Assembly: GCA_016790425.1 (NCBI GenBank)
Contig: JAEUPF010000002.1
Location: 1-42,487, forward strand
Length of the DNA stretch: 42,487 bases
From: Rubrivivax sp.
GTDB lineage: Bacteria > Pseudomonadota > Gammaproteobacteria > Burkholderiales > Burkholderiaceae_C
Reading direction: 5' to 3'
In this document: positions 11,282-35,228 of the stretch, piece by piece
How the letters are laid out: each line of letters begins with the position of its first letter
How positions within the stretch are numbered: position 1 is the first letter of the stretch
The notes under the pieces: model-generated
What the model saw: only the letters and a program-made list of their open reading frames with translations
What the model was told of the DNA's origin: nothing
Database searches by the model: none
Made by a program: the position numbers and the translations under genes

Positions 11282-12133
11282 CTACCGCGGGGCCGAACGC
11301 GCCTCGTCCAGCAGCGCGCGCAGGCTGCGCAGCGCAATCGCGTAGGTGATGCCGGTGGGCGCCGACAGCGCCGTCTCGCGGCTGCCGCGCACGGCGACCA
11401 TGTTGACCACGCCGACGACGGCGCCGCTTTCGGCGTCCAGCACCGGGCCGCCGCTGTTGCCCGGGTAAGCCGTGGCGTCGAGCTGCAGCACTTCGATGTT
11501 GCCGGCGCGCAGGCGCGCCAGCGCGCGCGGGTCCAGTTGCGCCGCGGTGGGCGCGGGCAGGGCGATCGTCGTCACCGAGGCGACGATGCCGCGGTGCGTG
11601 ACCGGCGCGAAGCCGAGCGCGCCGCCGGCGGGAAAGCCCATCAGCGCGATCGGCTGCCCTTCGGCCACTCGTTCGGCCTCGCCCAGCGGCAGCGCCGGCA
11701 GCGCCGTGCCGTCCAGGCGCAGCACTGCCAGGTCGTGCGCGCGGTCCATCGCTGCCACCGTGGCAAAGCGCAGGTCGCCCGCCTCTCGCCCGGGCGCAGC
11801 CGTCAGGGCCAGCACGGCCAGGCGCTGCGAACCGTCGCCCTCGCCGGGTGCGGGCAGCACGTGCGCGTTGGTGACGAGCAGGTGGCCGTCGCCGACGACG
11901 AAACCGCTGCCGCGGAACGTGAAGCGCGGGCTCGCCGTGGCGCTGTAGGTGCCCACCGGCAGCACCGAAGGCCGGGCGCGCGCGATGAGGCTGCGAAGAT
12001 CGGGCACTCGCGCGTCGGCACCGGGCCTGGCGGGCTCCTGGCCAAGCGCGGCACCTCCGGTAAACACGATGGCGGCTGCTGCGGCAGCCGCCACCAGCCA
12101 GGCGCTGCGGTCGTGTACCGGCAGCGGTTGCAT
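11282..12133 (-). CDS. trypsin-like serine protease, exported
   Basis: A 283-residue S1C-type protease with an N-terminal signal peptide (about 1-31, ending in a GGAALGQ region). The catalytic triad is visible as His91 (TNAHVL), Asp134 (AHDLAV) and Ser227 (PGNSGGP). There is no PDZ domain after the protease domain, unlike DegP/DegS, so it is a short, single-domain enzyme. It follows prsT by 33 bp on the same strand and is probably cotranscribed. A periplasmic role in processing or quality control of the exported matrix is an inference, and the substrate is unknown. The ATG start has no strong ribosome site, consistent with translation following prsT. Confidence 0.87.
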   Translation of the reverse strand: MQPLPVHDRSAWLVAAAAAAAIVFTGGAALGQEPARPGADARVPDLRSLIARARPSVLPVGTYSATASPRFTFRGSGFVVGDGHLLVTNAHVLPAPGEGDGSQRLAVLALTAAPGREAGDLRFATVAAMDRAHDLAVLRLDGTALPALPLGEAERVAEGQPIALMGFPAGGALGFAPVTHRGIVASVTTIALPAPTAAQLDPRALARLRAGNIEVLQLDATAYPGNSGGPVLDAESGAVVGVVNMVAVRGSRETALSAPTGITYAIALRSLRALLDEARSAPR

Positions 12134-15111: not shown

Positions 15112-16536
15112 TCACGGCTTGATGCCCAGGCGTTTCATCAAATCGTAGATCGTCGGCCGGCTGACGCCCAGCAGCTCGGCGGCGCGGCCGATGTTGCCGT
15201 TGGTGCGGGCCAGCGCGGTGACGATGGCGGTGCGCTCGGCGTTGTCGCGGATGGTGCGCAGGTTGAGGTCCGAAGGCACCGCGCCGTTGCCCTGCGCGTC
15301 GTCGGCCACCGCCAGGCCCAGGTCGGCGGCGGCGAGCCGCTCGCCCTCGGCCATGATGACGGCGCGCTTGACGCAGTTGAGCAGCTCGCGCACGTTGCCG
15401 GGCCAATCGTGGTGCTCGATGGCCGCGATCGCCTCCTCGGCGAAGATCAGGCCGGGGCGGCGCTGCTCCTGGGCGAAGCGGCGCAGGAAGGCGTGCGCCA
15501 GCAGCACCGCGTCGCCGGTGCGCTCGCGCAGCGGCGGGATGTCGACGACGATCTCGGCCAGGCGGTAGTAGAGGTCCTCGCGGAAGCGGCCATCGCGGAT
15601 CTGGTTCTTCAGGTCCTGGTGCGTGGCGCAGACGACGCGCACGTCCACGGCGATCTCGTTGCGCCCGCCCAGGCGCTCGATCGTGCGCGTCTCGAGGAAG
15701 CGCAGCAGCTTGGCCTGCAGCGAGGCGGGCAGGTCGCCGATCTCGTCGAGCATCAGCGTGCCGTTGTGCGCCGTCTCGATCTTGCCCGGCGTCGTCTTGC
15801 TGGCGCCGGTGAAGGCGCCCTTCTCGTGACCGAAGAGTTCGCTTTCGAGCAGGTTCTCGGGAATCGCCGCGCAGTTGATGGCCACGAAGCGGCCGGCGCG
15901 CTTGCTGGCGTTGTGCAGGCCCTGCGCCAGCACCTCCTTGCCGGTGCCCGATTCGCCCAGCAGCAGCACCGTGGCGTTGCTGGAGGCCACGCGCTCGACG
16001 GTGCGCGCCACGCGCAGCATGCGCGCGTCGCGCGTCACCAGGCCGCCCAGCGCGTCGGTGCCCCCGGCGCTGCGCAGGCGGCGGTTCTCGGCCTGCAGCT
16101 CGGCCAGGCGCAGCGCGCGCTCGACGGTGAGCTTGAGGACGTCGGGCTCGAACGGCTTGGCCAGGAAGTCGTAGGCGCCCTGGGCCACGGCACGCAGCGC
16201 GTGCGCCTGCGCGTTCTGGCCCGTCAGCACGATGACCTTGACATTGGCGTCGATGTCGAGCAACTGCTGCAGCAGGCGGAAGCCCTCCGAGACCGAATCG
16301 GGGTCGGGTGGCAGGCCGAGGTCCATCGTCACCACCGGCGGTGCGTGACGGCGGAACTGCGCCAACGCCGACTCGCGGTCGGCGGCGGTGACGGCCGCGA
16401 AGCTGTCGAGCGACCAGCGGATCTGGCGCTGCAACGCGAGGTCGTCCTCGACGATCAGCAGCGCGGGCGCGCTGGCGGCGGCGCTTGCGGCGGAGGTGAC
16501 GGCGGAGGTGGCGGCGGAGGTGGTGGCCTGGCTCAT
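15112..16536 (-). CDS. prsR: sigma-54-dependent response regulator PrsR
   Basis: A 474-residue NtrC-like activator. The receiver domain (about 25-140) carries acidic residues E30-D32, phospho-acceptor Asp72 and Lys127. The AAA+ domain has Walker A GESGTGKE (194-201) and the sigma-54 contact loop GAFTGA (240-245). A Fis-type helix-turn-helix lies at the end (RAAELLGVSRPTIYDLMKRLG). It matches the PEP-CTERM-box response regulator PrsR, thought to turn on PEP-CTERM and EPS genes through RpoN. The first 24 residues are a Ser/Ala/Thr repeat outside the usual domain. Its ATG overlaps the prsK stop (ATGA), so kinase and regulator are a co-translated pair. Confidence 0.95.
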   Translation of the reverse strand: MSQATTSAATSAVTSAASAAASAPALLIVEDDLALQRQIRWSLDSFAAVTAADRESALAQFRRHAPPVVTMDLGLPPDPDSVSEGFRLLQQLLDIDANVKVIVLTGQNAQAHALRAVAQGAYDFLAKPFEPDVLKLTVERALRLAELQAENRRLRSAGGTDALGGLVTRDARMLRVARTVERVASSNATVLLLGESGTGKEVLAQGLHNASKRAGRFVAINCAAIPENLLESELFGHEKGAFTGASKTTPGKIETAHNGTLMLDEIGDLPASLQAKLLRFLETRTIERLGGRNEIAVDVRVVCATHQDLKNQIRDGRFREDLYYRLAEIVVDIPPLRERTGDAVLLAHAFLRRFAQEQRRPGLIFAEEAIAAIEHHDWPGNVRELLNCVKRAVIMAEGERLAAADLGLAVADDAQGNGAVPSDLNLRTIRDNAERTAIVTALARTNGNIGRAAELLGVSRPTIYDLMKRLGIKP

Positions 16537-18632
16537 CGGAAGTCCGGCGCCATCAGGTCGGAGTCGTGCTGCATCTCGAAGAACGGCAACTGCACCGTGA
16601 CGACGGTGCCTTGGCCGGGCTGGCTGGCAGCTTCGATGGTGCCGCCGAGCTCGCGCACGTACTGCGCGCTCTCGTAGGCGCCCACGCCCATGCCGCTTTC
16701 CTTGGTGCTGGCAAAGGGCTTGAAAAGGCGGGTCTGCACGAACTCCTCGGTCATTCCTGCTCCGGTGTCACCGACCTCGATGTGGACCTGGCCGCGGTCG
16801 CGCTGCACGCCGATCCACACGCGCCCGCCGGTGCCGGTGGCGTCGAGCGCGTTGTGCACGAGGTGCCCGAGCACGCGCTCGAGGCGCTCGGCGTGGCCGC
16901 GCGTGGCCACGCGTTCCAGGCACTGCACCTCGAGCTCGCGGCCGCGGCCGCGGGCCGCTGCCTGCAGCCGCTGCACGAGCGGCGTCAATGCCACCCCCGC
17001 GCTGGCGCCGGCGGCGGGGGCGCCTTCGCGCAATTGCAGCATCAGGCGCCGCATCTTGCCGAGCGAGCTCTCCACGGTGAGCAGCATGTCCTGCTGGAAT
17101 TCACGGTTGTCGCGCAGGCGCTCCGCATTCTTCAGCATCAGCGAAAGCTGGGTCACGATGTTCTTCAGGTCGTGCACGACGAACGCCGACATGCGGTTGA
17201 AGGCCTCGAACTTGCGCGCCTCCAGCAGCGCCTCGGTGGCCTGCATTTGCGCCAGGTGGCCGGCGGCCTGGCGGCTGGCAGTCTTGAGCAGGTCGAGCAC
17301 CTCCCAGTTGACGTCCACGCGCGTGCGCGGATGGGCCAGCAGCACGAAGCCGAGCAGGTCGTCGCCGGCCAGCAGCGGCACCACCAGCCAGGCGTCGCCC
17401 GCCGCGAGCAGCCACGTCGGCAGCACCAGCCCTTCGTAGACGCGCGGCGCCGTGCGCAGCTGGTCGAGGTCGATGACCCAGCCGGTGCGGCGCAAGTAGG
17501 CGCTGAAGGGGCTGTCCGCGGGCTCGCGGCCGGCGATCGGCGCGGCGTTCCAGCGCGCCGTCTGCTGCAGGGGGCCGTCGCGGTCGGCGCGCGTCCACAG
17601 GCTGCCGGCGGGGCACTCCACCATGTCGGCCAGGCCGCGCACGATGAGGTGGCCGATCTCGTGCGGCGAGCCGCGCGTGCCCAGCATCGCCGTGAAGCGC
17701 AGCCACTGCTCGCGATAGTCGAAGCGGTAGCTGAAGAAGTGCTTGCCGACGAAGACGCGCAGCCAGGAACGCAGCGAGCCGGAAACGGTGAAGGCCGCCA
17801 GGACCGCTGCGGCCGCGAAGAGCAGCGCCAGCTGCAGCCCCTGGCCCCAGGTGCCGCCGAAGAAGCGCACGTAGTAGCCGAGGCTGGAGACGAACAGCAG
17901 ATACAGGCCCGCCAGCACCAGCGTGGCCGAGTGGAACACCGCCGTGCGCGAAACCTGCAGGCGCACCAGCCAGTCGGCGCGGCGGCGTGCGGCCACCAGC
18001 AGGAACGGCACCGCGAGCATGTGCACCGCGCCGCGCGCGCCGAGCGTTTCGTCGTCGATGCGTCCGAAGAGGAACCCCTGCGACATCATGTAGATGTCGA
18101 ACGCGAAGACGACGGCCAGACCGATGCACACCGGCTTGGCAAACCAGCGTGCGTCCTCACCGAGGTTGCGGAAGAGCTGCTCCAGCAGCAGCAGGCCCAG
18201 CACCGGCAACGCCAGCAGCACCAGCAGCACGAGCCGCGAAGGCGCCTGGTCGATGACGCCGAGCACGATGCGCAGCCCCTGAAGCACCGCGGCGGCCAGC
18301 AGCGCCGTGGCGATGATCCAGCGCAGTGCCGACGGCGCGTGCCGCGAGCCGCCCTCGCGCATGGCGCGCACCAGGGTGTACAGGAACGCCAGCCACAGCG
18401 CGTAGCGCACCGGGTCGAGCAGCGCGGCGAGCGCCAGCACGGTGGCGTCGCCGCCATGGTGACCCAGTGCCTGCGCCGCGGCCCACAGCGCCGTGGCGAG
18501 CAGTGCACCGGCGAACAGGCCCGAACTGAGCGGGGTGCCGCGCGGCATTCGCCCCGTCCAGCCGAGAAAGGCCAGAAAGATCAGGTGGACGGCCGCGCTG
18601 AGCGCGTGGCCCGCCACCGCCATGTCATTCAC
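16533..18632 (-). CDS. prsK: membrane sensor histidine kinase PrsK
   Basis: A 699-residue inner-membrane kinase partner of PrsR. The N-terminal 300 residues hold about nine to ten hydrophobic helices, followed by a GAF-like region (about 315-460), a histidine phosphotransfer segment with His487 (FVVHDLKNIVTQLSLM) and an ATPase domain (NALDATG N-box, GDTGAGM G1 box, GMGVGAY G2 box). This is the architecture of PrsK kinases tied to exosortase A. The start at 18632 is GTG. An in-frame ATG at 18623 would remove three residues. Neither start has a strong ribosome site. The signal sensed is unknown. Confidence 0.94.
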   Translation of the reverse strand: MNDMAVAGHALSAAVHLIFLAFLGWTGRMPRGTPLSSGLFAGALLATALWAAAQALGHHGGDATVLALAALLDPVRYALWLAFLYTLVRAMREGGSRHAPSALRWIIATALLAAAVLQGLRIVLGVIDQAPSRLVLLVLLALPVLGLLLLEQLFRNLGEDARWFAKPVCIGLAVVFAFDIYMMSQGFLFGRIDDETLGARGAVHMLAVPFLLVAARRRADWLVRLQVSRTAVFHSATLVLAGLYLLFVSSLGYYVRFFGGTWGQGLQLALLFAAAAVLAAFTVSGSLRSWLRVFVGKHFFSYRFDYREQWLRFTAMLGTRGSPHEIGHLIVRGLADMVECPAGSLWTRADRDGPLQQTARWNAAPIAGREPADSPFSAYLRRTGWVIDLDQLRTAPRVYEGLVLPTWLLAAGDAWLVVPLLAGDDLLGFVLLAHPRTRVDVNWEVLDLLKTASRQAAGHLAQMQATEALLEARKFEAFNRMSAFVVHDLKNIVTQLSLMLKNAERLRDNREFQQDMLLTVESSLGKMRRLMLQLREGAPAAGASAGVALTPLVQRLQAAARGRGRELEVQCLERVATRGHAERLERVLGHLVHNALDATGTGGRVWIGVQRDRGQVHIEVGDTGAGMTEEFVQTRLFKPFASTKESGMGVGAYESAQYVRELGGTIEAASQPGQGTVVTVQLPFFEMQHDSDLMAPDFR

Positions 18633-18854: not shown

Positions 18855-20237
18855 TCAGCGCGCGCCCTTGCCGGTGAGGACCACGCCGACTGTCTCGAGC
18901 AGCACGACGAGGTCGAGGAACAGCGTGTGGTTCTTCACGTAGTACAGGTCGAACTGCAGCTTCTCCTGCGAGTCCTCGACCGTGGCGCCGTAGGCGTAGC
19001 GCACCTGTGCCCAGCCGGTGACGCCGGGCTTGACGCTGTGGCGAACGGCGTAGAAGGGGATCTTCTGCGTCAGCTGTTCGACGAAATAGGGGCGTTCCGG
19101 GCGCGGGCCGACGAGGCTCATCTCGCCCTTGAGGACGTTGAAGATCTGGGGCAGCTCGTCGATGCGCAGGCGCCGGATGATCTGCCCGACGCGCGTGATG
19201 CGGTCGTCGTTGGCAGCGGCCCAGCGCGGCTTGCCGTCCTTCTCGGCGTCGGTGCGCATGCTGCGGAACTTGGTGACCAGGAACGAGCGGCCGTTCTGGC
19301 CCACGCGTTCCTGCCGATAGAACACCGGGCCGGCGCTCTCGAGGCGGATCAGCAACGCCGTGACCGCCATGATCGGCGCCGCGGCCAGCAGCAGCAGTGT
19401 TGCGCAGACGATGTCGAAGACCCGCTTGACGAAGGCGCGGAAGGCGCCCTGGTTGAAGCCGTCGCCGAAGATGAGCCAGCTCGCGTTCAGATAGTCGATC
19501 CGGATCTGGCCGAGCGTCTTCTCGAAGTGCGTGTTGAGGTCGTAGACCTTGACGCCCGAGAGCTTGCAGTCGAGCAGCTGGCGCAGTGGCATGCTGCCCG
19601 AGCGGCGTTCGGTGAGCGCGACGACGATCTCGTCGACGCCGAGGCTGGCGGCGGTTTCGGTCAGAGAGCCGCGGCTGGTGAGCAACTCCGCGGCCGGGAC
19701 GGCCGTCTCGGTCTCGTTCGGGCCCGGCACGAAGCCGACGATGACGGCGTTCGGGTCAGCCGAACGCAGCGTCGCGCCAACCACCTGCGCGGCCTGCCCG
19801 GCGCCGAAGATGAGGATGCGCGTGCGTCCGCGGGCGACGGCCGAGCGCTGCGACACGTAGACGCGGCGCAGCACCAGCGCCGAGACCCCGGCCATCACCG
19901 AGAACTGCACGGCTTCGCGGCTGCTGAACTGCGTGGGCAGCAAGCCGAAGATCGCGTAGGCCGCGGGCAGCACGATGAGCAGCACGAAGACGGCGCGCGC
20001 GCACGAGCGCGACAGCGACAGGGAGTTCTGCGGCTCGTACAGGCCCGAGGCGCTGTTGACGACGAAAAGCGCTGCCGCGAACGACACCAGCTGCCCACCG
20101 GCCAGCGGCACGGCCATGTCGAGGCCACCGACCTGATACGTCACCGCGCCCAGCGCCAGCAGCAAAGCCAGTGCCAGGTCGAAGAACATGCTTCGCAGCG
20201 AAGCGCGGTGTACGTAGTGGTGGAAGATTCTGATCAT
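18855..20237 (-). CDS. exopolysaccharide-initiating sugar phosphotransferase (XrtA-associated)
   Basis: A 460-residue polyprenyl glycosylphosphotransferase. It should transfer a sugar phosphate to the undecaprenyl lipid carrier to start the EPS repeat unit. Four to five N-terminal membrane helices (about 15-120) are followed by a nucleotide-binding-like region (LIFGAGQAAQVV, about 143-154). A further helix (about 275-300) leads into the conserved catalytic block (VTKFRSMRTDAE, RIDELPQIFNVLKGEMSLVGPRPERP, KPGVTGWAQVRYAYGA). It matches the TIGR03013-type sugar transferase of exosortase A loci. It is transcribed away from the main EPS array and alone, with 222 bp to prsK and 269 bp upstream containing a possible sigma-54 site. 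Confidence 0.94.
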   Translation of the reverse strand: MIRIFHHYVHRASLRSMFFDLALALLLALGAVTYQVGGLDMAVPLAGGQLVSFAAALFVVNSASGLYEPQNSLSLSRSCARAVFVLLIVLPAAYAIFGLLPTQFSSREAVQFSVMAGVSALVLRRVYVSQRSAVARGRTRILIFGAGQAAQVVGATLRSADPNAVIVGFVPGPNETETAVPAAELLTSRGSLTETAASLGVDEIVVALTERRSGSMPLRQLLDCKLSGVKVYDLNTHFEKTLGQIRIDYLNASWLIFGDGFNQGAFRAFVKRVFDIVCATLLLLAAAPIMAVTALLIRLESAGPVFYRQERVGQNGRSFLVTKFRSMRTDAEKDGKPRWAAANDDRITRVGQIIRRLRIDELPQIFNVLKGEMSLVGPRPERPYFVEQLTQKIPFYAVRHSVKPGVTGWAQVRYAYGATVEDSQEKLQFDLYYVKNHTLFLDLVVLLETVGVVLTGKGAR

Positions 20238-20506: not shown

Positions 20507-21634
20507 TCAGCCTTCGGTCGGGGCTGTTACAGATTCGGTGCCGCCGTCGCGCTCGCGCAGGCGCAGCGCCTTGACGGCAAGGTGGCGTGCGAGCAACAGC
20601 GGCGGCATGCGCAGCCAATGTCCTCGGAGATAGAGCGCGAACAAGGCCGCCCCGGTGCCGGCGGGCGCGGCTGCGGGGTGGCGGCTGCGCACGGCGCGGT
20701 GCCACAACGCTGCCATCGGTGCACGCAAAGGCCAACCGGGCCCGAACGCCTGGACGGCGCGTGCCACCTCCGCTGGCACCGGCGTGCCCAGCACGAGTGC
20801 CGCCTGGCCCAGGCCGTAGTGCAGCGGCCGGCGCAGGTCGAGTAGCGACGCGCGTTCGACAAGACTGTCCCAGAAGCCGGGCCGAGCCGCGAAGTGCCGC
20901 AGCAGCAGGTCCAGGTCGGACAGGTCGCGCAGCGCGTGGCTCATGTCGTCATTCATGAACAAGTGCGTCATCGCGTGCAGCACCATGTCGGGCGGTGCCA
21001 GGACGTGCAGGCCCGGCTGTCCGGGCAGCGGCCGCGCTGCCGAGACGAGGCGTGCGCCGTCGGGCTTCAGGCGAGCGGTGAGCGGCAGGATGTTGTGGTG
21101 CACGTCGAGCGTCGTGCCGCGCCGCATGTGCTGCATCGGCGGCAGTTCGTGCATCCACTGGCGGTAGTAGCGCTGGTCGTAGGCGTTGTCGTGTGTGCCG
21201 GCCCAGCCGTGCAGCATCAGCTGCGACTCGGCTTCTGCCACTGCGGCGCGCGGCACCAGGATGTCGATGTCGGAGAAGACGCGCGAGGCGGCCGGCGGCA
21301 GATCAGCGGCGTGATACGCGGCGCCCTTGAGCACGACGACGGGGCAGCCGATCGGTGCCAGTGCGCGCGCGATGTGCGCCAGCTCGCGGTCGACCTCGGC
21401 GCGCTGGGCGCGGATCAGCCGCCAAGCCGATTCGAAATGAGCTTGCAGTGGTGCCGGCCACGGCGTCGCTTCGCTGCCCCTGTACAACGAGCCAAGGCGC
21501 TGGCCCACGCGTGCCAGCAGGCCGGCGGCGCGCGCCTGTTGCAACAGGAGCGACCACTGCCCGGCGTCCCATCCCGTGAAGTGCGGCGCTGCGGCCGTGA
21601 GGGCCTGGACGACGAGGTCGCGCCGCTCAGGCAT
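20507..21634 (-). CDS. nucleotidyltransferase family protein (HPr-rel-A cassette)
   Basis: A 375-residue protein of the family of large nucleotidyltransferase-fold proteins found near polysaccharide and peptide-modification genes. The active-site pattern is visible: Lys103 in VVLKGAAY, followed by the metal-binding pair Asp122/Asp124 in FSDIDILVP, then a His-rich helical region (LDVHHNIL, VLHAMTHLF). A nucleotidyl or phosphoryl transfer is likely, but the substrate is unknown. The start overlaps the stop of the HprK-related gene by 8 bp, so it is coupled to that cassette. The last about 20 residues are charged and Thr/Glu-rich. The 3' end faces the 269-bp spacer before the sugar transferase gene. 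Confidence 0.8.
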   Translation of the reverse strand: MPERRDLVVQALTAAAPHFTGWDAGQWSLLLQQARAAGLLARVGQRLGSLYRGSEATPWPAPLQAHFESAWRLIRAQRAEVDRELAHIARALAPIGCPVVVLKGAAYHAADLPPAASRVFSDIDILVPRAAVAEAESQLMLHGWAGTHDNAYDQRYYRQWMHELPPMQHMRRGTTLDVHHNILPLTARLKPDGARLVSAARPLPGQPGLHVLAPPDMVLHAMTHLFMNDDMSHALRDLSDLDLLLRHFAARPGFWDSLVERASLLDLRRPLHYGLGQAALVLGTPVPAEVARAVQAFGPGWPLRAPMAALWHRAVRSRHPAAAPAGTGAALFALYLRGHWLRMPPLLLARHLAVKALRLRERDGGTESVTAPTEG

Positions 21635-22562
21635 GTTCGTCGCGCGCCAGGCGGTCGAACAGCGCCACCGCTTCGGCCAGGTCGCCGTATTCGAACGTGA
21701 AGCAGCGGCTGCGATCGACCAGCGTGCCGAGCATTTCGAAGCCCTCGGCGCCGAAGATGTCGTAGTTGAAGGCGTTCTCGATCAGCCGCATGAAGGTGCG
21801 CGCCCGCTCGAGCGGCACGAGCCGTGCCGGCGCCCCGGCCGCGAAGCGCGGGAAGACGATCCAGCCGGGCATCGCCGCCCGGTCGCTCGCGCGCACCGCT
21901 TCGGCCGGCGGCGCGAAATGGGCGACGACGCCCTTGGCGGTCTCCTGCACGCGCGAACCGAACTCGACCTGCGGCGCGAAGGCGCTGATCACGTCGATGG
22001 ACGCGTTCTTCAGGCTCACCGGCCGCGGCATCGGCAGCAGGGCGCCCGTGCCGGGCGCCAGCAGCGCCAGCTCGTCTGACAGCAGCCGCCAGCCGCTGAA
22101 CAGCAGCGCAGCGCACAACGTGCTCTTGCCTGATCCCGAGGGCGCCGGCAGCAGCAGCGCGCGGCCGTCGCGTTCCAGCACGGCCGCATGCATCGTGAGG
22201 TGCTGGTGGCACAGGCCGTAGACGCACCAGTTCAAGCCCCATTCCAGCAAGGGGAAGCCCTGGTCGCCGGGCAGCGGATTGAACGGCGCCTGGCCTTCGA
22301 ACTCGAAGACGACCTGCGGGCGCCACAAGGACCGCGGACCGAAGGGTCGCCGCACGGCGACGTCGAAGTCGACGAAGGCCGAATCGGGCGCGAGCGCGTG
22401 GTGCCGGTACAGGGACGACACAGCGCGCGCCACTTCGGGCAACGGCGAGCGCACGCGTGCGATGTAGGGACCGAGGCGCAGCCGAACACCTCCGGAGGCG
22501 CCCTTGCGCTTCAGCGTTGCCGCAACGTCATGCGTCGGGTTCTGGATCAGGGTAGGCGTCAC
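21627..22562 (-). CDS. HprK-related kinase A
   Basis: About 311 residues, related to the C-terminal kinase domain of HPr kinase/phosphorylase. The P-loop PAPSGSGKST is at 139-148, preceded by MHAAVLERDGRALLL (124-138) and followed by LLSDELALL (160-168), which mirrors the HprK ATP-site order. The N-terminal half (1-110) is unlike HprK and unrecognised. No HPr (ptsH) gene is present, so the phospho-acceptor is not a standard PTS protein as far as can be seen. GTG 22562 gives a start 35 bp inside the pqqD-like gene. The frame extends further upstream, but with shadow composition. Its neighbours fit the HPr-rel-A system, whose biochemistry is not established. Confidence 0.82.
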   Translation of the reverse strand: MTPTLIQNPTHDVAATLKRKGASGGVRLRLGPYIARVRSPLPEVARAVSSLYRHHALAPDSAFVDFDVAVRRPFGPRSLWRPQVVFEFEGQAPFNPLPGDQGFPLLEWGLNWCVYGLCHQHLTMHAAVLERDGRALLLPAPSGSGKSTLCAALLFSGWRLLSDELALLAPGTGALLPMPRPVSLKNASIDVISAFAPQVEFGSRVQETAKGVVAHFAPPAEAVRASDRAAMPGWIVFPRFAAGAPARLVPLERARTFMRLIENAFNYDIFGAEGFEMLGTLVDRSRCFTFEYGDLAEAVALFDRLARDEHA

Positions 22563-22857
22563 CGTGGGCCCGGCCAAGGAGACCGGAGTGCAGCAAACCC
22601 TTGATGATGCCCACCAGGCCCGCCTCGACCTCCGGGTCGTTCTCTTCGCCGAGGCCCACGGCGTGCGCAATCTCGCGCAGGGTCAGGCCGCGTGCGCTGT
22701 CGCCGCAAACGCCGATGATCGCTGCCGCTTCGGCGGCCAGCAGGTGCGTTGCCCCGCTGCCGGCCTGTCGGGCCACGGTGAGATCCTCGCCGGGCCAGCG
22801 CCGCAAGGCCAGGCCGCCCAACGCGCGATAACGCGAGCCCTCATCGAAAGGGCTCAT
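22528..22857 (-). CDS. PqqD-family peptide chaperone (HPr-rel-A system)
   Basis: A 109-residue PqqD-like winged-helix protein: LAAEAAAIIGVCGD followed by LTLREIAHAVG and a C-terminal helix (GIIKGLLHSGLL). In PQQ and other ribosomally made peptide pathways, PqqD domains bind the precursor leader and present it to modifying enzymes. No pqqA, pqqB, pqqC or pqqE is near, so this is not PQQ synthesis. ATG 22857 has AGGG eight bases upstream. It lies 37 bp after the Cys-rich protein gene and overlaps the kinase gene, so the three are probably one transcript. The C-terminus ends in an acidic Asp/Pro tail. Confidence 0.82.
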   Translation of the reverse strand: MSPFDEGSRYRALGGLALRRWPGEDLTVARQAGSGATHLLAAEAAAIIGVCGDSARGLTLREIAHAVGLGEENDPEVEAGLVGIIKGLLHSGLLGRAHGDAYPDPEPDA

Positions 22858-22894
22858 GCCGGCGGCCCTAGACGCCAGCCGCTAAACACCCGGG

Positions 22895-23503
22895 TCAGAC
22901 GATGATCGAGTAGTTCAGCTGGTAACGCAACCAAGCGATGAGCTGCGCTGAACTCCAGTCGATGCTGGACATCGGCAGCTTGTATCGCTTGCCGTTCGAG
23001 TTGTAGTTCTGCCAGATCGACTTGAGGTATGCAGTGCTCACGTTGCCGGCCGCTGCTCGCATGTAGTTCTGGGTCATGCACAGATTGAGCGCGATCAGAT
23101 GCTGTGCCACTCCCAGTTCAGTGTCCGTCAAGATGCCTGCGCCATCACACAGAACCTGGCGCAGCGTCTTGCCGTTGTACTTCGAAGAGGTCGAACCCAG
23201 GCAGGTAGAGACCAGCGGCTGGACGCAGGCGAGCGAGGAGTCCGCTTGACAGGCGCTGCGCCAGTCCTCGACGCGGCGAGTGGCGCAGTTGACCGAGGTC
23301 ACGCTCGGATTGCGGCTCTTGAACGTGGCCACCGAAACGAACGAGGAGGCGACCACGCAGCTGCTGGTGGCCGCCACCGGGTTGCTCACCAGCGTCAGCA
23401 GCACCGGCGACGCACCGGCACCCGCGCGCAGCAAAGCGCGGCGGTCGAGGCGGACTCCCGGCTTCGGGTTCGGGGGCGTCGCGGCTGCGTTCTTCTCGTT
23501 CAT
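22895..23503 (-). CDS. exported Cys-rich protein of unknown function
   Basis: I do not recognise this 202-residue protein. It begins with a charged, Pro-rich N-region, then RRALLRAG (21-28) and a hydrophobic stretch to about residue 45, giving a twin-arginine-like or Sec signal with probable cleavage near VAAT. The mature part has seven cysteines (49, 73, 85, 93, 101, 119, 142) and ends in an aromatic, Asn/Ser-rich tail (WLRYQLNYSIIV). GC in three sampled 60-base lines is 50-58%, against roughly 70% in flanking genes, suggesting a different history. It is first in the run with the PqqD-like, kinase and nucleotidyltransferase genes and is the best candidate substrate or effector of that system. 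That role is inference. Confidence 0.7.
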   Translation of the reverse strand: MNEKNAAATPPNPKPGVRLDRRALLRAGAGASPVLLTLVSNPVAATSSCVVASSFVSVATFKSRNPSVTSVNCATRRVEDWRSACQADSSLACVQPLVSTCLGSTSSKYNGKTLRQVLCDGAGILTDTELGVAQHLIALNLCMTQNYMRAAAGNVSTAYLKSIWQNYNSNGKRYKLPMSSIDWSSAQLIAWLRYQLNYSIIV

Positions 23504-23896: not shown

Positions 23897-23902
23897 GAGG
23901 AG
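23897..23902 (+). promoter_or_regulatory. ribosome binding site deciding a TTG start
   Basis: GAGGAG lies eight bases before TTG 23911, an ideal spacing. It overlaps the in-frame GTG at 23902, which therefore has no usable ribosome site of its own. This favours TTG as the start of the export lipoprotein. Confidence 0.55.
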
Positions 23903-23910
23903 TGAACCCT

Positions 23911-24579
23911 TTGTCCAAGCTCGAACTGTTGTCGCCGATCCGGCCCGCTGGCCTGCGTCTTGCGGCGCTACGCCTGCTTCGGGCCTGTGCCATGGCCGTC
24001 GCTGGCACGGCTTTCGTAGCCGCCTGCAGCAGCCTGGGCAACCTGCCGCCCGCACCGGCCACGGCCAGCGCCACCGATTACAGCTATGTCATCGGCGCCG
24101 GCGACACGCTGTCGATCATCGTCTGGCGCAACCCGGAGCTGTCGCTGTCGGTTCCGGTGCGGCCGGACGGCAAGATCTCCGCGCCGCTGGTCGACGAGAT
24201 GGTGGCCCAGGGCAAGACCTCCACCGCGGTGGCGCGTGACATCGAAAAGCGCCTCGCCACCTTCGTCCGCGACCCCGTGGTCACGGTCATCGTGACCAGC
24301 TTCGTCGGCCCCTACAGCGAACAGATCCGCGTTGTCGGCGAAGCGGCGCGGCCGCAGTTCCTCCCCTTCCGCCAGAAGATGACGGTGCTCGACGTGATGA
24401 TCGCCGTCGGCGGCCTCACCGACTTCGCCGATGGCAACGGCGCGACGATCGTGCGCACTGCCGAGGGCAACAAGCAGTACTCGGTGCGGCTGAAGGACTT
24501 GGTGCGGCGAGGCGACGTGTCAGCCAACGTCGAAATGCGTCCGGGCGACATTCTCATCATCCCGCAGAGCTTCTTCTGA
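23911..24579 (+). CDS. polysaccharide export lipoprotein (XrtA-associated, Wza-like)
   Basis: About 222 residues, outer-membrane polysaccharide export family. A signal sequence leads to a lipobox-like FVAAC (Cys39), then a Poly_export domain (SYVIGAGDTLSIIVWRNPELS..., PVRPDGKISAPLVDE) and an SLBB-type domain (QIRVVGEAARPQFLPFRQKMTVLDVMIAVGG), ending VEMRPGDILIIPQSFF. This is the short form found in exosortase A loci, lacking the C-terminal helix of E. coli Wza. It should form the outer-membrane part of the EPS exporter with the chain-length protein encoded next. The GTG at 23902 is an alternative start adding three residues. Confidence 0.93.
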   Translation: MSKLELLSPIRPAGLRLAALRLLRACAMAVAGTAFVAACSSLGNLPPAPATASATDYSYVIGAGDTLSIIVWRNPELSLSVPVRPDGKISAPLVDEMVAQGKTSTAVARDIEKRLATFVRDPVVTVIVTSFVGPYSEQIRVVGEAARPQFLPFRQKMTVLDVMIAVGGLTDFADGNGATIVRTAEGNKQYSVRLKDLVRRGDVSANVEMRPGDILIIPQSFF

Positions 24580-24625
24580 AGCCGGCGCCGCCTCTCGCGC
24601 CTGGTGCTTCGCCGGCCTGAACGCC

Positions 24626-26260
24626 ATGCAAGACCTCCTGAAGCAAGTCCTCAACACGCTGCGCGGAATGTGGAAGTTCCGCTGGCAGGGGCTCATCGTG
24701 GCCTGGGTCGTGGCCGTCGTCGGCGTGGTCGTGGTGTGGCGCATTCCCGACCAGTTCGAGGCCTCGGCGCGCATCTACGTCGACACCGACAGCATCCTCA
24801 AGCCGCTGATGAGCGGCCTGGCAGTGCAGCCCAACGTCGAGCAGCAGATCACCATGCTCAGCCGCACGCTGATCAGCCGGCCGAACCTCGAAAAGCTCGT
24901 GCGCATGGCCGACCTGGACCTGAAGAACCAGTCGAAGCAGGACCAGGAGGCGTTGATCGAGCGGCTGCAGCGCGGCATCGTGATGCGCACGGCCGGCGGC
25001 GCGAACCTTTACGTCATGTCCTATCGCGATCCCGAGCCCGACAAGGCCAAGCGCGTCATCCAGTCGATGGTCTCGATCTTCGTCGAGTCGGGCATGGGAG
25101 CCACCCGGAAGGACACCGATTCGGCCAAATCGTTCTTGGCCGAGCAGATCAAGATCTACGAGACGCGCCTCGAGGAGGCCGAGGCGCGGCTGAAGGACTT
25201 CCGCCTGCGCAACATCGATCGCCAGGCGCTCGACGGCAAGGACGTCGCCAGCCGCATGGCCGAGATCGGCACGGCGCTGGAGGCTGCTCGCCTGCAGTTG
25301 CGTGAGGCCGAACGCTCGCGCGAAGCGGCCAGGCGCCAGCTCGCCGAAGCGCGCGGCCAGGCGCCGAGCACGGCGCTACCGAATCTGCTCGCCCCGGCAC
25401 CTGGCGCCGCCGCTATCCCGGCCGGCAACTTCGCGACGCCCGAAATCGATGCGCGCATCCAGGACCAGCGGCGCAATCTCGACGGCCTGCTGCAGCGCTA
25501 CACCGACCAGCACCCGGACGTGCTGAACGCCCGCCGCCTGATCGCTGAACTCGAGGAGCAAAAGCGCAGGGAAGTGGCCGAACTGCAGCGCCGCGCCCAG
25601 GCCGCTGCTGTTGCGGCCGCTGCAGCGGCGGCGAGCGCCCCGCGCGTGGCCACGACGCCGGGCGAGAGCTTGGCCGTTCAGGAGATGAGCCGCATGCTGG
25701 CCACCGCCGAAGTGCAGGTGGCCGCGATGCAGGCGCGCGTGGACGAATACGCCGGCCGCATGGCCCAGGTGCGCCAGCAGCTGAAGACGGCGCCGCAGAT
25801 CGAAGCCGAGGCGGCGCAGCTCAACCGCGACTACGCGATCATCAAGAAGAACTATGAGGACCTGGTCGCGCGCCGCCAGGCCGCTGTGATGTCCGGCGAA
25901 CTGGAATCGGCCGCCGGCGTGGCCGACTTCAAGCTCGTCGACCCGCCGCGGGTGGCGCCGCGGCCGGTGTCGCCGAACCGGCTGCTGCTGCTGCCGGGCG
26001 TGCTGTTCGCCGCCCTCGCGCTGGGGTTGGCATCGGCGTTGGCCGCAGTGCAGATCCGGCCCACCTTCGGTCGTGGCGACGAGCTGCGCCAGAAGACCGG
26101 CCTGCCGCTGCTGGGCGTCGTTTCGGCGCTCATCACCGACGCCGACCGCCGACGCGAGCGCGCCTCGATGTTCCGCTTCGTCACCGCTTCGGGCGGGCTG
26201 GTGGGCATCTTCGTGGCCGGGCTGATCGCGATGATCGTCATGAACCGGTACGGGGCCTGA
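24626..26260 (+). CDS. polysaccharide chain-length determinant (XrtA-associated, Wzz/GumC-like)
   Basis: A 544-residue inner-membrane co-polymerase. It has an N-terminal Wzz domain with a membrane helix (about 23-39), a long periplasmic coiled-coil region (about 185-430, rich in Ala, Arg, Glu and Gln, with an Ala-rich stretch near 325-345), a Pro-rich segment before the second helix (DPPRVAPRPVSPNRLLLLPG) and a last hydrophobic helix near 515-535. This is the length and plan of the exosortase A chain-length protein. It lacks a fused kinase domain, which is supplied by the next gene four bases downstream. It probably sets EPS length and joins the export lipoprotein to the kinase. Confidence 0.93.
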   Translation: MQDLLKQVLNTLRGMWKFRWQGLIVAWVVAVVGVVVVWRIPDQFEASARIYVDTDSILKPLMSGLAVQPNVEQQITMLSRTLISRPNLEKLVRMADLDLKNQSKQDQEALIERLQRGIVMRTAGGANLYVMSYRDPEPDKAKRVIQSMVSIFVESGMGATRKDTDSAKSFLAEQIKIYETRLEEAEARLKDFRLRNIDRQALDGKDVASRMAEIGTALEAARLQLREAERSREAARRQLAEARGQAPSTALPNLLAPAPGAAAIPAGNFATPEIDARIQDQRRNLDGLLQRYTDQHPDVLNARRLIAELEEQKRREVAELQRRAQAAAVAAAAAAASAPRVATTPGESLAVQEMSRMLATAEVQVAAMQARVDEYAGRMAQVRQQLKTAPQIEAEAAQLNRDYAIIKKNYEDLVARRQAAVMSGELESAAGVADFKLVDPPRVAPRPVSPNRLLLLPGVLFAALALGLASALAAVQIRPTFGRGDELRQKTGLPLLGVVSALITDADRRRERASMFRFVTASGGLVGIFVAGLIAMIVMNRYGA

Positions 26261-32421: not shown

Positions 32422-33681
32422 ATGGCAACGCTGCTCTTCCTGGCTCACCGGCTGCCCTATCCGCCGGACAAGGGCGACAAGGTGCGCTCGTGGAACCTTC
32501 TGCGTCACCTGGCGCAGCGGCACCGCGTCTTCTTGGCGACGTTCGTCGACGACCCCGCCGACCTGCGGCATGTCGAGACGGTGGCCGGGCAATGCGCCGG
32601 CTTGCACGCGAGCCGCCTGGTGCCGCAGCGCGCGCGCCTGGCAAGCATGGCCGGCCTGCTCGACGGGCAGGCGCTGACGGTGCACTACTACCGCGACAAG
32701 GCCCTGCAGCGCTGGGTCGATGCGACGCTCGCCCGCGAACGCATCGATGCCGCACTGGTGTTCTCGTCGTCGATGGCGCAGTACCTCGACCGTCATGCCG
32801 ACCTCCCGATGCTCGTCGACTTCGTCGATGTCGACTCGGCGAAGTGGGCTGCCTACGCCGGGCGCAAGCGCTGGCCGATGTCGTGGATCTATGCCCGCGA
32901 GGGCCGCACGCTGCTGGCCGAGGAGCGGCGCATCGCCGCCCGGGCCCGCGCCGGCTTCTTCGCCACCGGGAAGGAAGCGCAACTGTTCCGCTCGCTGGCG
33001 CCGGAGTCCGCCGCGCGCTGCTTTGCGCTGGACAACGGCGTCGATGCGGCGTTCTTCGCTCCTGCAATTCAGCGGTCCTCGCCTTTCGCCCCCGGGGAGG
33101 CGGCCGTGGTGTTCACCGGGGCGATGGACTACTGGCCCAACGAAGACGCGGTGCGCTGGTTCGCCGCCGAAGTGCTGCCGCAGCTGCGGGCAAGGCGGCC
33201 GGACGTGCGCTTCTACATCGTCGGTCGGAACCCGACCAGCGCCGTGTGCTCGCTCGCCGGCGACGGCGTGGTCGTGACGGGCACGGTGTCCGACGTGCGA
33301 CCCTATCTGCAGCACGCTGCGGTGGTCGTCGCGCCGCTGCGGCTGGCGCGCGGCGTGCAGAACAAGGTGCTCGAGGCGATGGCGATGCAGCGCGCCGTGG
33401 TCGCGGCCGCCGAATGCGTGAGCGCGTTGAATGTCAGGGTCGGAGCCGAGATCATTGCCGCTGAAACGGCGGTCGAGTACTCGCGCGAGGTGCTGGGCTT
33501 GCTCGATCGCGCCGCTGCTGCCGAGGCGATCGGCGCCGCGGCGCGGCGACGCGTGCTGCAGAGCTACTCATGGGAGGCGCACCTTGGCGTCCTGGATCGC
33601 CACCTGATGGCGCACGTGGAGCGCTCGCGCCAAAGCGCTTCCCCGCCGGCCGCTGCGGCGGTGGCCGAGGCCGGGGCATGA
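32422..33681 (+). CDS. glycosyltransferase, XrtA/PEP-CTERM-associated type 1 (GT4)
   Basis: A 419-residue GT4-fold glycosyltransferase of the exosortase A set (TIGR03087 type). The N-terminal LAHRLPYPPDKGDKVRSWNLL (7-27) is the family hallmark, and the C-terminal domain has VFTGAMDYWPNEDAVRWF and APLRLARGVQNKVLEAMAM. It should add one sugar to the lipid-linked repeat at the cytoplasmic face. ATG 32422 lies 11 bases after the FemAB stop. The stop overlaps the exosortase start (ATGA). The C-terminal tail is Ala/Pro-rich. The sugar cannot be read from sequence. Confidence 0.92.
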   Translation: MATLLFLAHRLPYPPDKGDKVRSWNLLRHLAQRHRVFLATFVDDPADLRHVETVAGQCAGLHASRLVPQRARLASMAGLLDGQALTVHYYRDKALQRWVDATLARERIDAALVFSSSMAQYLDRHADLPMLVDFVDVDSAKWAAYAGRKRWPMSWIYAREGRTLLAEERRIAARARAGFFATGKEAQLFRSLAPESAARCFALDNGVDAAFFAPAIQRSSPFAPGEAAVVFTGAMDYWPNEDAVRWFAAEVLPQLRARRPDVRFYIVGRNPTSAVCSLAGDGVVVTGTVSDVRPYLQHAAVVVAPLRLARGVQNKVLEAMAMQRAVVAAAECVSALNVRVGAEIIAAETAVEYSREVLGLLDRAAAAEAIGAAARRRVLQSYSWEAHLGVLDRHLMAHVERSRQSASPPAAAAVAEAGA

Positions 33682-35228
33682 GCGCGCCATTGGCGACCGC
33701 GTTCGCGCCTGACTGGCGGCGCGTGGGCCTGCTGTTGGTGCCGGTCGTGGGCCTGGTGGTACTGATGTACGGCAGCACCTTCGCTGCGATGAGCAACGTC
33801 TGGCTCAATTCGCAGGCGTTCGCCCACGGCTTGGTCGTGGGCCCGATCGCCGCGTGGCTTGTCTGGCGTCAGCGTGAACGGCTGCTTGCGCTGGCGCCGC
33901 GGCCAGCGCCGTGGCTGGCTCTGCCGATGCTGGGCGCGGCGGCCCTTTGGCTGCTGGCCGACATGGCAGGCGTCAACGCCGGCGCACAGATCGCAGCCAC
34001 GGCCATGGTCGTCATCGCGATCGTCATGCTGCTGGGAACGGCCATCGGTCGCGCCATTGCGTTTCCGCTGGGCTTCCTCTTCTTCATGGTGCCGTTCGGC
34101 GACTTCCTCGTGCCACAGCTGATGACGTGGACCGCGGACGTGACGGTGATGGCACTGCGCTCGCTGGGTGTGCCGGTGTACCGCGAGGGGCTGCAGTTCG
34201 TCGTGCCGACGGGCACCTGGTCGGTGATCGAGGCCTGCAGCGGCGTGCGCTACCTGACGGTCTCGGTCATGGTTGGCTTCCTGTTCGCTTACCTGAACTA
34301 CAGCTCCGTCGGCAAGCGCGCGGTCTTCATCGCCTGTGCGGTGCTCGTCTCGCTGGTAGCCAACTGGGTGCGCGCGATACTGCTGGTGATGGTCGGCCAT
34401 CTCTCGGAGAACCGCCTGGGAGCGGGCCCTGACCACTTCTTCTACGGCTGGGTGGTCTACGGCATCGTCATCGCCTTGATCTTCTGGATCGGAGGCCGGT
34501 TCGCTGATCCGGATGAAGCGCCGCGGCGTGCCGCGCCGCCGCAAGCGGGAGCGCCGGTTTCGACGTTCGCCTGGGTCGCGACCGCTGCGCTCGCACTGGC
34601 CGCCGCCGCGGCACCGACGCTGGCCCCGGCCACATCCCTCGGCGTCGAAGCCGGGCCCGTGCAGTTGCGATTGCCGGCGCTCGGCGAGGAGACGGTCGCT
34701 CCCGATCTACCGCGCCCGGAATTCATCGGTGCCGCAGCGTCGACTGAACGCGCCTACTTGATCCCTGGCGGCGAGGCGGCCTTGGTCCATGTCGCCTACT
34801 ATCGCCAGCAGCAGTACGGCAGGAAGCTGATCAGTTCGCAGAACGTCCTCGTCAAGTCCACCAGCCACGACTGGGCACTCGTAGCGGAGGGGCGTCGCGC
34901 CCTGGCGCTTGCCGGGCGGGGCGAGTTGGTGGTCCGCACGGCCGAGATGCGTGGTGGCACGCTGGCCGCAGGGCTCGATGCCCGCAGGGTCCAGGTACGG
35001 CAGGTCTACTGGGTCGATGGCGAATTGCTGGCCGACGATCGCCGGGCCGCCCTGCGCGGGCTGTGGGGCCGGCTGCTCGGCCGAGGCGACGATGCTGCGG
35101 CTGTCACGTTCTACCTGGCTTCCGCGGATCCGGATTCGCCGGCGCTCGATGGCTTCGTCGCGCAGCATCTCGGCGCGATCGTCGGCGTCCTCGAAGGCGT
35201 TCGGGCCGAGCGTCGCGATCCCTCCTGA
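33678..35228 (+). CDS. xrtA: exosortase A fused to EpsI domain
   Basis: A 516-residue inner-membrane protein. The exosortase part (about 1-275) has eight or so hydrophobic helices and the catalytic triad: Cys187 (EACSGVRYL), Arg232 (NWVRA) and His253 (DHFFYGW). It should cleave PEP-CTERM proteins at the PEP motif and attach or release them to the outside. After a linker and one helix (about 300-320) follows an EpsI-like domain (about 325-510) of unknown function, found fused to XrtA in many beta- and gammaproteobacteria. It is co-translated with the preceding glycosyltransferase. The substrate in this window is the PEP-CTERM protein at 9099-10076, and others must lie elsewhere. Confidence 0.96.
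   Translation: MSAPLATAFAPDWRRVGLLLVPVVGLVVLMYGSTFAAMSNVWLNSQAFAHGLVVGPIAAWLVWRQRERLLALAPRPAPWLALPMLGAAALWLLADMAGVNAGAQIAATAMVVIAIVMLLGTAIGRAIAFPLGFLFFMVPFGDFLVPQLMTWTADVTVMALRSLGVPVYREGLQFVVPTGTWSVIEACSGVRYLTVSVMVGFLFAYLNYSSVGKRAVFIACAVLVSLVANWVRAILLVMVGHLSENRLGAGPDHFFYGWVVYGIVIALIFWIGGRFADPDEAPRRAAPPQAGAPVSTFAWVATAALALAAAAAPTLAPATSLGVEAGPVQLRLPALGEETVAPDLPRPEFIGAAASTERAYLIPGGEAALVHVAYYRQQQYGRKLISSQNVLVKSTSHDWALVAEGRRALALAGRGELVVRTAEMRGGTLAAGLDARRVQVRQVYWVDGELLADDRRAALRGLWGRLLGRGDDAAAVTFYLASADPDSPALDGFVAQHLGAIVGVLEGVRAERRDPS

Follow-up and report, generated by a model that had tools for sequence, protein, structure and literature searches.

Known tailoring systems and the Rubrivivax unit

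HprK-like kinases such as PadeK, ThcoK and SyanK carry a His-Lys-Asp-Asp motif and (poly)phosphorylate the C-terminal serine of lasso peptide precursors, and PsmN, a nucleotidyltransferase homologue, is needed for the hexoses on the phosphoserine (PMC9266682). For the Bacillota, linear polyphosphorylated peptides (LPPs) were described in 2026. Their units encode a recognition element (RRE) for ribosomally synthesized and post-translationally modified peptides (RiPPs), an HprK-like kinase, a nucleoside triphosphate (NTP) transferase, a SipW-like peptidase and an MsbA-like exporter (PMC13381572). LPP units were first seen in capsule loci; the precursors of 35-200 amino acids have a conserved N-terminus and a variable C-terminus, the leader carries the motif YxxPxVLxHQxIxFETxxS, and LppK polyphosphorylates Ser3 of the core (PMC13381572). 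As the published numbering of V-11 and L-10 puts the leader proline at -13 and the motif gives the same distance, this Ser3 corresponds to Pro+15. The main text of that paper mentions neither Pseudomonadota nor Proteobacteria, twin-arginine, exosortase or TIGR04352. Here, we analyzed a four-gene unit in a 42,487-nucleotide stretch of Rubrivivax sp. DNA (contig JAEUPF010000002.1, positions 1 to 42,487; the window in the following). On the minus strand, at positions 20507-23503, it encodes an exported protein with seven cysteines, a PqqD-like protein, an HprK-related kinase A and a PF14907 nucleotidyltransferase, in that order. We consider it rather probable that the four genes form a RiPP-like serine-tailoring module dedicated to this one exported protein, coupled to twin-arginine translocation (Tat) and linked to exopolysaccharide (EPS).

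The unit was compared over 125 loci, namely 118 stretches around TIGR04352 kinases, six records from a genome scan and the window, spanning the family of the window and, beyond it, other classes of the same phylum. A copy of the window (L001) was excluded from every count. TIGR04352 scored above cut-off in 62 of 250 genomes of the family and in 61 of 398 genomes spread over the phylum; four of the phylum hits (G270, G325, G420, G436) are outside the locus set. In the family and phylum profile searches for the kinase and for exosortase A a maximum of nine (family) or six (phylum) candidates was scored per genome, so that matches may be missed.

With the LPP units the cassette shares a discrete RRE, an HprK-like kinase, an NTP transferase, an N-terminally conserved candidate precursor and the location in polysaccharide loci. 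In position, the candidate acceptor Ser48 of the window's exported protein (Pro33+15) corresponds to the phosphorylated LPP Ser3. The NTP transferase of the unit (PF14907, 115/125 loci) corresponds by enzyme class, and the kinase retains the catalytic His, the P-loop Lys and the Asp in all 125 loci; the second Asp is replaced by Glu. Differences were also seen. The cassette leader is a twin-arginine (RR, Tat-type) signal, whereas the LPP leader is of the YxxP type, which is absent from 120/120 cassette proteins. No archaeal-type signal peptidase I (TIGR02228) was found in the genome of the window (assembly 82% complete) and no MsbA-like exporter among the four genes, the recurrent neighbours of the 125 loci having been clustered and partly named. 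Moreover, the cassette is proteobacterial and its cysteine-bearing product is often near or above 200 amino acids. Because the tests for the signal peptidase and for YxxP failed, the cassette was not classed as an LPP unit; it probably works like one.

The tailoring of paeninodin and pseudomycoidin (PadeK, ThcoK, PsmK, PsmN; PMC9266682) likewise relies on a B1-type RRE, a His-Lys-Asp kinase core and an NTP transferase. It differs in that the modified serine of the lasso peptides is C-terminal (PMC9266682), whereas the cassette lacks the B2 peptidase and the cyclase and its kinase has Asp-Glu. In NCBIfam the cassette corresponds to the HPr-rel-A system (TIGR04352, TIGR04353), with the kinase well above and the PqqD-like protein of the window below cut-off; the family names give neither substrate nor product. 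The SynChlorMet cassette, of which radical SAM enzymes are further parts, also contains a PqqD-like and HprK-like pair (ScmC/ScmD) and gave weak cross-hits, with scores far below cut-off. In the open-licence literature, to which all our literature searches refer, no paper was found under the name HPr-rel-A or its variants, on twin-arginine together with RRE and kinase, on exosortase together with PqqD, or on PEP-CTERM and exosortase with kinase and nucleotidyltransferase.

The exported protein and its inheritance with the kinase

A small exported protein with a twin-arginine signal accompanies the kinase in 118 of the 125 loci. In 108 of these it was found with an iterated hidden Markov model (HMM) grown from the window proteins (weakest matches 35-43 bits); in the other ten (L115-L124; families f45 and f78 of other classes of the phylum) a different short RR-signal protein directly upstream of PqqD was picked by eye from lists of open reading frames (ORFs). 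Searches of the same kind found the PqqD-like protein in 111 and the nucleotidyltransferase in 115 of the 125 loci, and in 8/8 loci with an exported protein and no PqqD match an ORF of 73-109 codons (stop to stop) occupies the PqqD place. The exported protein is encoded just upstream of the kinase and on the same strand for 117 of 120 copies, the exceptions being L027 and L031 (behind the nucleotidyltransferase) and L085 (inverted). Seven loci were counted without it: L071 is cut by the contig end, L088 has the kinase alone, and none was found in L087, L101, L110, L113 and L125. Tandem duplicates of the gene precede one PqqD-kinase set in two loci (L021:4227-5624 and L041:4254-5557).

By their C-terminal motifs the exported proteins were sorted into type A (79, window-like), type B (31-32, short, ending in SCWxSF) and type C (9-10, ending in TC[FY]ASLQ). 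These types follow the kinase. Mapping A versus B/C onto the kinase tree required two changes for the 118 of 125 rows having an exported protein. With the seven protein-less rows included, three changes were counted for A and six for B/C, compared to shuffled means of 38.3 and 34.7; none of 500 shuffles was as low. Using the mature parts only, 116 of 118 had any match (none for L099 and L112; for L021 and L041 the first of the two copies was used), and the locus of the best relative had a median rank of 2 among the kinase neighbours, falling within rank 3 in 75 and within rank 10 in 101 of the 116. Shared genome ancestry could explain part of this signal, but all three genomes with two cassettes gave the same picture: in 6/6 cases the best relative belonged to the locus of the first or second nearest kinase, and the paired exported proteins of these genomes had no mutual blastp match at E <= 1. 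Both genus-mates of the window in the sample (L063, L067) likewise possess distant kinases together with other exported proteins.

The preliminary description had interpreted the genes as a modification pathway acting on the adjacent Cys-rich protein. The condition it named for its own refutation, absence of the exported-protein gene from most cassettes, did not come true, with such a gene in 118 of 125 loci. The adjacency and the joint inheritance bear out the pairing, and the published related modules do modify a precursor. Richness in cysteine, in turn, had to be given up as the defining trait, as the number of cysteines ranges from 0 to 11 per protein.

The constant traits are the RR signal, the first cysteine and the serines close behind the signal. 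Residues R21, R22, P33, T37, L38 and A45 are invariant in the window and L002-L007. A fixed twin-arginine plus hydrophobic pattern was present in 102 of 120 exported proteins (shuffles: mean 1.65, maximum 6), and a laxer RR test on neighbouring genes was positive for 17 of 261. Another count, with RR in 120/120, is in part a product of the anchor rule, which gave preference to RR; start codons were set by a script rule. TatC is encoded in the window's genome, and the signal would be cleaved after A45. A serine is found at Pro+15 in the window and L002-L006, in 27/32 type B and in 9/9 type C proteins, in which the proline itself is mostly a serine; five type-A proteins had no usable proline for these counts. 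Positions 53, 57 and 63 are the only columns with at least 90% serine among the 79 type-A proteins, and 72 of these have Ser or Thr at all three. The first cysteine is conserved in 95% of the 79 type-A, 31/31 type-B and 10/10 type-C proteins. Since the RR signal and the nearby serines are constant and the cysteine number varies, a chemistry at serine is the better bet than one at cysteine.

Behind these positions the protein changes quickly. Window and L007 share 50% identity in the signal and 19% in the mature part, compared to 31% for PqqD, 44% for the kinase and 46% for the nucleotidyltransferase; enzymes and signal are therefore kept, and the body of the exported protein is fast-changing. 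Among 46 representatives no Pfam or NCBIfam family was found at E < 0.001, and of four stray single-member matches at E 0.003-0.004 two were Tat-signal models. A genome search showed the type-A body to be homologous to a module present twice (E 1e-9 and 4e-8) in an adhesin-like SdrD_B/DUF11 protein of 1907 amino acids (L133:5876-11596, minus strand), located in genome G168 about 265 kb from the cassette of that genome. The module is of the TPGFWKNH... LLRHSAAALLNA type; no Pfam model covered it among the best stretches listed, and no paper mentioning GFWKNH or GYWKNH was found. The matches start behind the signal and the Cys/Ser segment (profile position 68). This resemblance to an adhesin-like module suggests that the type-A body may be an extracellular structural module. 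An AlphaFold2 model of the exported protein from seven sequences was poor over the signal (mean pLDDT 62.7), with ten-residue means above 80 only at residues 101-140 and 161-190. Foldseek returned no PDB match for the model (best E 3.1), a profile of the 46 relatives gave nothing credible against PDB (best E 0.062), and a plasmid search with the exported protein yielded no match.

A minimal paralogous system was observed in the window's family, in four of six weaker kinase relatives (L132:4354-7070, L135:4099-6942, L136:1398-4204, L138:6097-8648). It consists of PqqD, a short RR peptide (ORF of 69-105 codons) and a weak HprK relative, to which a PF14907-type gene in opposite orientation is added. 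The peptide signal reads YVAPAILTLAAAPxFAKAGS or close to it, which corresponds to YxxPxI, and the tail is mostly rich in G, K, P, N and D. A further peptide of this type occurs in L134:5861-6133 without a kinase match; none was seen in L137 and L139. All five peptides have YxxP, a serine at Pro+16 and no cysteine after the signal, and in L132, L135 and L136 this serine is the sole Ser/Thr of the mature part. With a single serine and neither threonine nor cysteine in the mature part of three of the five, such a peptide can scarcely be understood other than as a precursor.

The enzymes and the exopolysaccharide context

The catalytic residues of the kinase are intact: His113, Lys134 of the P-loop, Asp151 and Glu152 (numbered from codon 22526) are identical in 125/125 loci, and the kinase profile aligns with crystal structures of HprK in the region of the His, the P-loop and the Asp (E 4e-4). 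As a separate HPr(Ser) kinase is encoded elsewhere in the genome (G000:C63, 329 bits), the cassette kinase is not its only HprK. The sole family match of the PqqD-like protein, TIGR04353 with 26-27 bits, stays below the cut-off of 35, which makes it no formal member; 29 of 29 sampled relatives match the same family at E <= 0.01. The best natural matches of its profile are the lasso RREs TfuB1 (2e-7) and TbiB1 (3e-5), and designed helical proteins match it as well, one of them with the best score of all. For the nucleotidyltransferase, R118, D122, D124, H179 and H180 are among the residues conserved in 115 relatives. No sequence match in PDB was obtained, and its AlphaFold2 model (pLDDT 78) gave weak Foldseek matches (best E 0.018), among which were several nucleotidyltransferases, ANT(2'') for example.

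In 12 loci (L075, L082-L084, L092, L095-L097, L100, L102-L104), among them five in which no nucleotidyltransferase was found (L096, L097, L102-L104), the kinase is followed by a TPR-sulfotransferase-like gene. The name of this gene relies on a GMPRSGTT motif read by eye, with NCBIfam matching the TPR part only. In 12/12 of these loci the exported protein has Tyr-Tyr before SCWxSF, compared to 4/29 of the other proteins bearing the motif. This could be a branch with tyrosine sulfation; since the 12 loci fall in only three lineages of the kinase tree, we treat the link as a lead and not as evidence.

The features of the window are summarized below. The order and spacing given in the preliminary description were reproduced from the sequence, with 37 bp between the exported-protein and PqqD-like genes, a PqqD/kinase overlap of 35 bp if the kinase starts at GTG 22562, and a kinase/nucleotidyltransferase overlap of 8 bp. 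Exactly seven cysteines were counted, at residues 49, 73, 85, 93, 101, 119 and 142. As the four-gene unit recurs in many genomes, it is no chance arrangement.

Table. Position of the four genes, candidate sites and neighbouring EPS genes in the window
Feature	Position	Strand	Basis
Exported protein, 202 amino acids, 7 Cys, candidate substrate/precursor	22895..23503	-	no Pfam/NCBIfam family
N-terminal region with twin-arginine signal (residues 1-45), proposed leader as well as Tat signal	23369..23503	-	R21 R22, P33, T37 L38, A45
Ser48, candidate phosphate acceptor (P33+15; third residue after A45)	23360..23362	-	Ser conservation and LPP offset
Ser53, Ser57, Ser63 cluster after Cys49, second candidate acceptor region	23315..23347	-	type-A Ser columns
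PqqD-like peptide chaperone (putative RRE)	22528..22857	-	TIGR04353 below cut-off; profile match to lasso B1 RREs
HprK-related kinase A (start taken at GTG 22562)	21627..22562	-	TIGR04352 385 bits (cut-off 200)
PF14907 nucleotidyltransferase	20507..21634	-	183 bits (cut-off 31.2)
XrtA/PEP-CTERM system glycosyltransferase EpsB_2	18855..20237	-	TIGR03013 517 bits
PrsK histidine kinase and PEP-CTERM response regulator (PrsR)	15112..18632	-	TIGR02916 776 bits, TIGR02915 704 bits
XrtA-system polysaccharide export and chain-length proteins	23902..26260	+	TIGR03027 239 bits, TIGR03007 505 bits
Exosortase A	33576..35228	+	TIGR03109 308 bits (cut-off 208)

The cassette of the window is indeed embedded in an exosortase locus, as had been stated before, with EpsB_2, PrsK, PrsR, export and chain-length proteins and exosortase A around it. 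As a general rule, that it always lies in such a locus, the statement was ruled out: an EPS/XrtA-type marker was found near the cassette in 58 of 125 loci (mostly within 6 kb on either side) and was absent from 67. A first count, in which the window proteins served as queries and fewer kinds of marker were admitted, had given 29 of 125. At the genome level the link is real in the window's family, where exosortase A above cut-off was present in 59 of 62 kinase-positive versus 7 of 188 kinase-negative genomes (250 genomes; Fisher p 2e-45, relatedness ignored). Adjacency to the exosortase locus is not required for the cassette. Many type-B genomes have no exosortase A, and many of their cassettes stand beside glycosyltransferases and a gene cluster of the XrtA amidotransferase type. 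An asparagine-synthase-like neighbour was present in 21 other loci, and its representative (L083) scores as XrtA amidotransferase. Because of the type-B genomes without exosortase A, the presence of a marker in only 58 of the 125 loci and the glycosyltransferase neighbours, the partner of the cassette is more likely the polysaccharide system than the exosortase itself.

Two other neighbours recurred. A trypsin/HtrA-like serine protease gene was present near the cassette in 18 loci (window 11282-12133, minus strand; L016, L018, L019, L038, L054, L061 and others), directly behind the nucleotidyltransferase in several of them and about 9 kb off in the window. Neighbouring genes of a further cluster, the representative of which scores as pssA (CDP-diacylglycerol-serine phosphatidyltransferase), were also found in 18 loci of different kinase clades, on the kinase strand in L008, L011, L013, L020, L023, L030, L032, L033, L039, L049, L051, L055 and L069 and on the opposite strand in L040, L053, L056, L057 and L066. 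This recurrence points either to a common site of insertion or to a functional connection with lipid.

Proposed mechanism, alternatives and meaning

Taking together the gene content and the relatives in print, the following pathway is proposed. In the cytoplasm, the PqqD-like protein, as an RRE of the lasso B1 type, would bind the conserved signal or leader of the exported protein. The HprK-related kinase would then phosphorylate a serine just behind the leader, perhaps with several phosphates, and the PF14907 enzyme would cap or extend the phosphate with a nucleotidyl or sugar group. Leader binding, phosphorylation and capping are modelled on the published systems. Beyond these, we conjecture that the acceptor would be Ser48 as first and Ser53, Ser57 or Ser63 as second choice, that the finished protein would be exported, most likely by Tat, with the signal cut off thereafter, and that the product would have an extracellular role linked to the XrtA/exopolysaccharide system.

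In an extended version the Tat signal itself would be the RiPP leader, with the RRE binding inside the signal and the kinase building a phosphate chain at the future N-terminus, which would define an unreported class of proteobacterial secreted proteins. The PF14907 enzyme would cap or glycosylate this chain, and Tat would export the phospho(glyco)protein as attachment point or structural partner of the XrtA/PEP-CTERM matrix. The mature part would be exchangeable, so that one modification end could serve many unrelated proteins. This extension is put forward tentatively.

We are aware that several observations weigh against the proposed serine-tailoring pathway. Its chemistry is a prediction. 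The serine at Pro+15 holds in the window's clade and in types B and C and is not conserved in type A as a whole (16% Ser). The spacing C-x(2,3)-[ST]-x3-S-x3-S occurs only in 39 of 79 type-A proteins (shuffles 1.0), and the window misses it by a shift of two residues. In the signal, no Y/W as in YxxP, the known motif for RRE binding, occurs in any of the 120 cassette proteins; the looser pattern P-x-[LVIAFMTS]-x-[TSAL]-[LIVM] fits only 68 of 120, and the proline is missing in type C and in 5 of 79 type-A proteins. For type B, most of the profile score (roughly 35-76 bits) comes from the signal. The enzymes add to this: in the kinase an Asp-Glu pair replaces the Asp-Asp of HprK, no nucleotidyltransferase turned up in 10 of 125 loci (L085, L088, L090, L093, L096, L097, L102-L104, L106), and LppN, the NTP transferase of the LPPs, was without effect in the published host (PMC13381572). 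Finally, the exosortase link is weaker phylum-wide: exosortase A was present in 25 of the 61 genomes with the kinase and in 10 of the 337 without it; seven further kinase-positive genomes had a weaker exosortase match only.

The alternative to be taken most seriously, though unlikely in our view, makes the exported protein a partner and not the substrate. The trio would act on some other molecule, such as a component of the EPS or a small peptide encoded elsewhere, which the exported protein would carry, sense or receive outside the cell. The mature parts differ wholly between the types and the enzymes stay alike, as would suit such a partner, and the type-A domain can exist without the unit, because its module is repeated in the distant SdrD_B-type protein. 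Yet the conserved parts are precisely the signal and the nearby serine positions, which lie before the start of the adhesin matches, and in the minimal system a trio stands beside a short RR peptide that offers, in three of five cases, a single serine and neither threonine nor cysteine for modification. Classical regulation of EPS synthesis by the kinase, through HPr or another regulator, is suggested by the HprK homology and by the position in a regulated EPS locus with PrsK and PrsR; we regard it as improbable, since the genome encodes another HPr(Ser) kinase, which led us to reject the classical HprK as the simplest reading, and since the cassette kinase goes with the exported protein and not with the EPS locus, as the 67 loci without a nearby EPS marker demonstrate.

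Quite improbable, too, is that the cysteines are the modified residues, prepared by the trio for crosslinks or a metal site. Seven cysteines in the window and the first cysteine conserved in types A, B and C speak for it, but their number is not conserved, for which cysteine chemistry was rejected as main idea. The minimal-system peptides, moreover, manage without cysteine after the signal, none of the three enzyme families performs cysteine chemistry, and disulfides formed after export would explain the cysteines without the trio. The most remote of the alternatives is a lasso peptide cluster, in which a B1-like RRE, an HprK-like kinase and an NTP transferase do occur (PMC9266682). Against it stand the lack of a Transglut_core3 match (B2-type, PF13471) in the genome assembly, the lack of a cyclase among the four genes, and a candidate precursor of 202 amino acids that has a signal peptide and ends in SIIV, without a C-terminal serine. 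For the window the missing B2 protein and cyclase refute a lasso cluster, unless these genes are in the unassembled 18%.

For the serine-tailoring pathway, RRE/HprK/NTP-transferase tailoring as such was already known; new are a candidate substrate family of Tat type, which is inherited together with the kinase, and its tie to exosortase A. HPr-rel-A, an orphan system in NCBI annotation, thereby gains a candidate substrate inherited with the kinase, candidate serines in it and, in the window's family, a partner at the genome level in exosortase A. If the proposal is true, a tailoring that the papers considered here describe for lasso peptides and for linear Bacillota peptides would extend to Tat-type secreted proteins of proteobacteria, and it would offer a direct handle on the extracellular partners of the PEP-CTERM/exopolysaccharide system.

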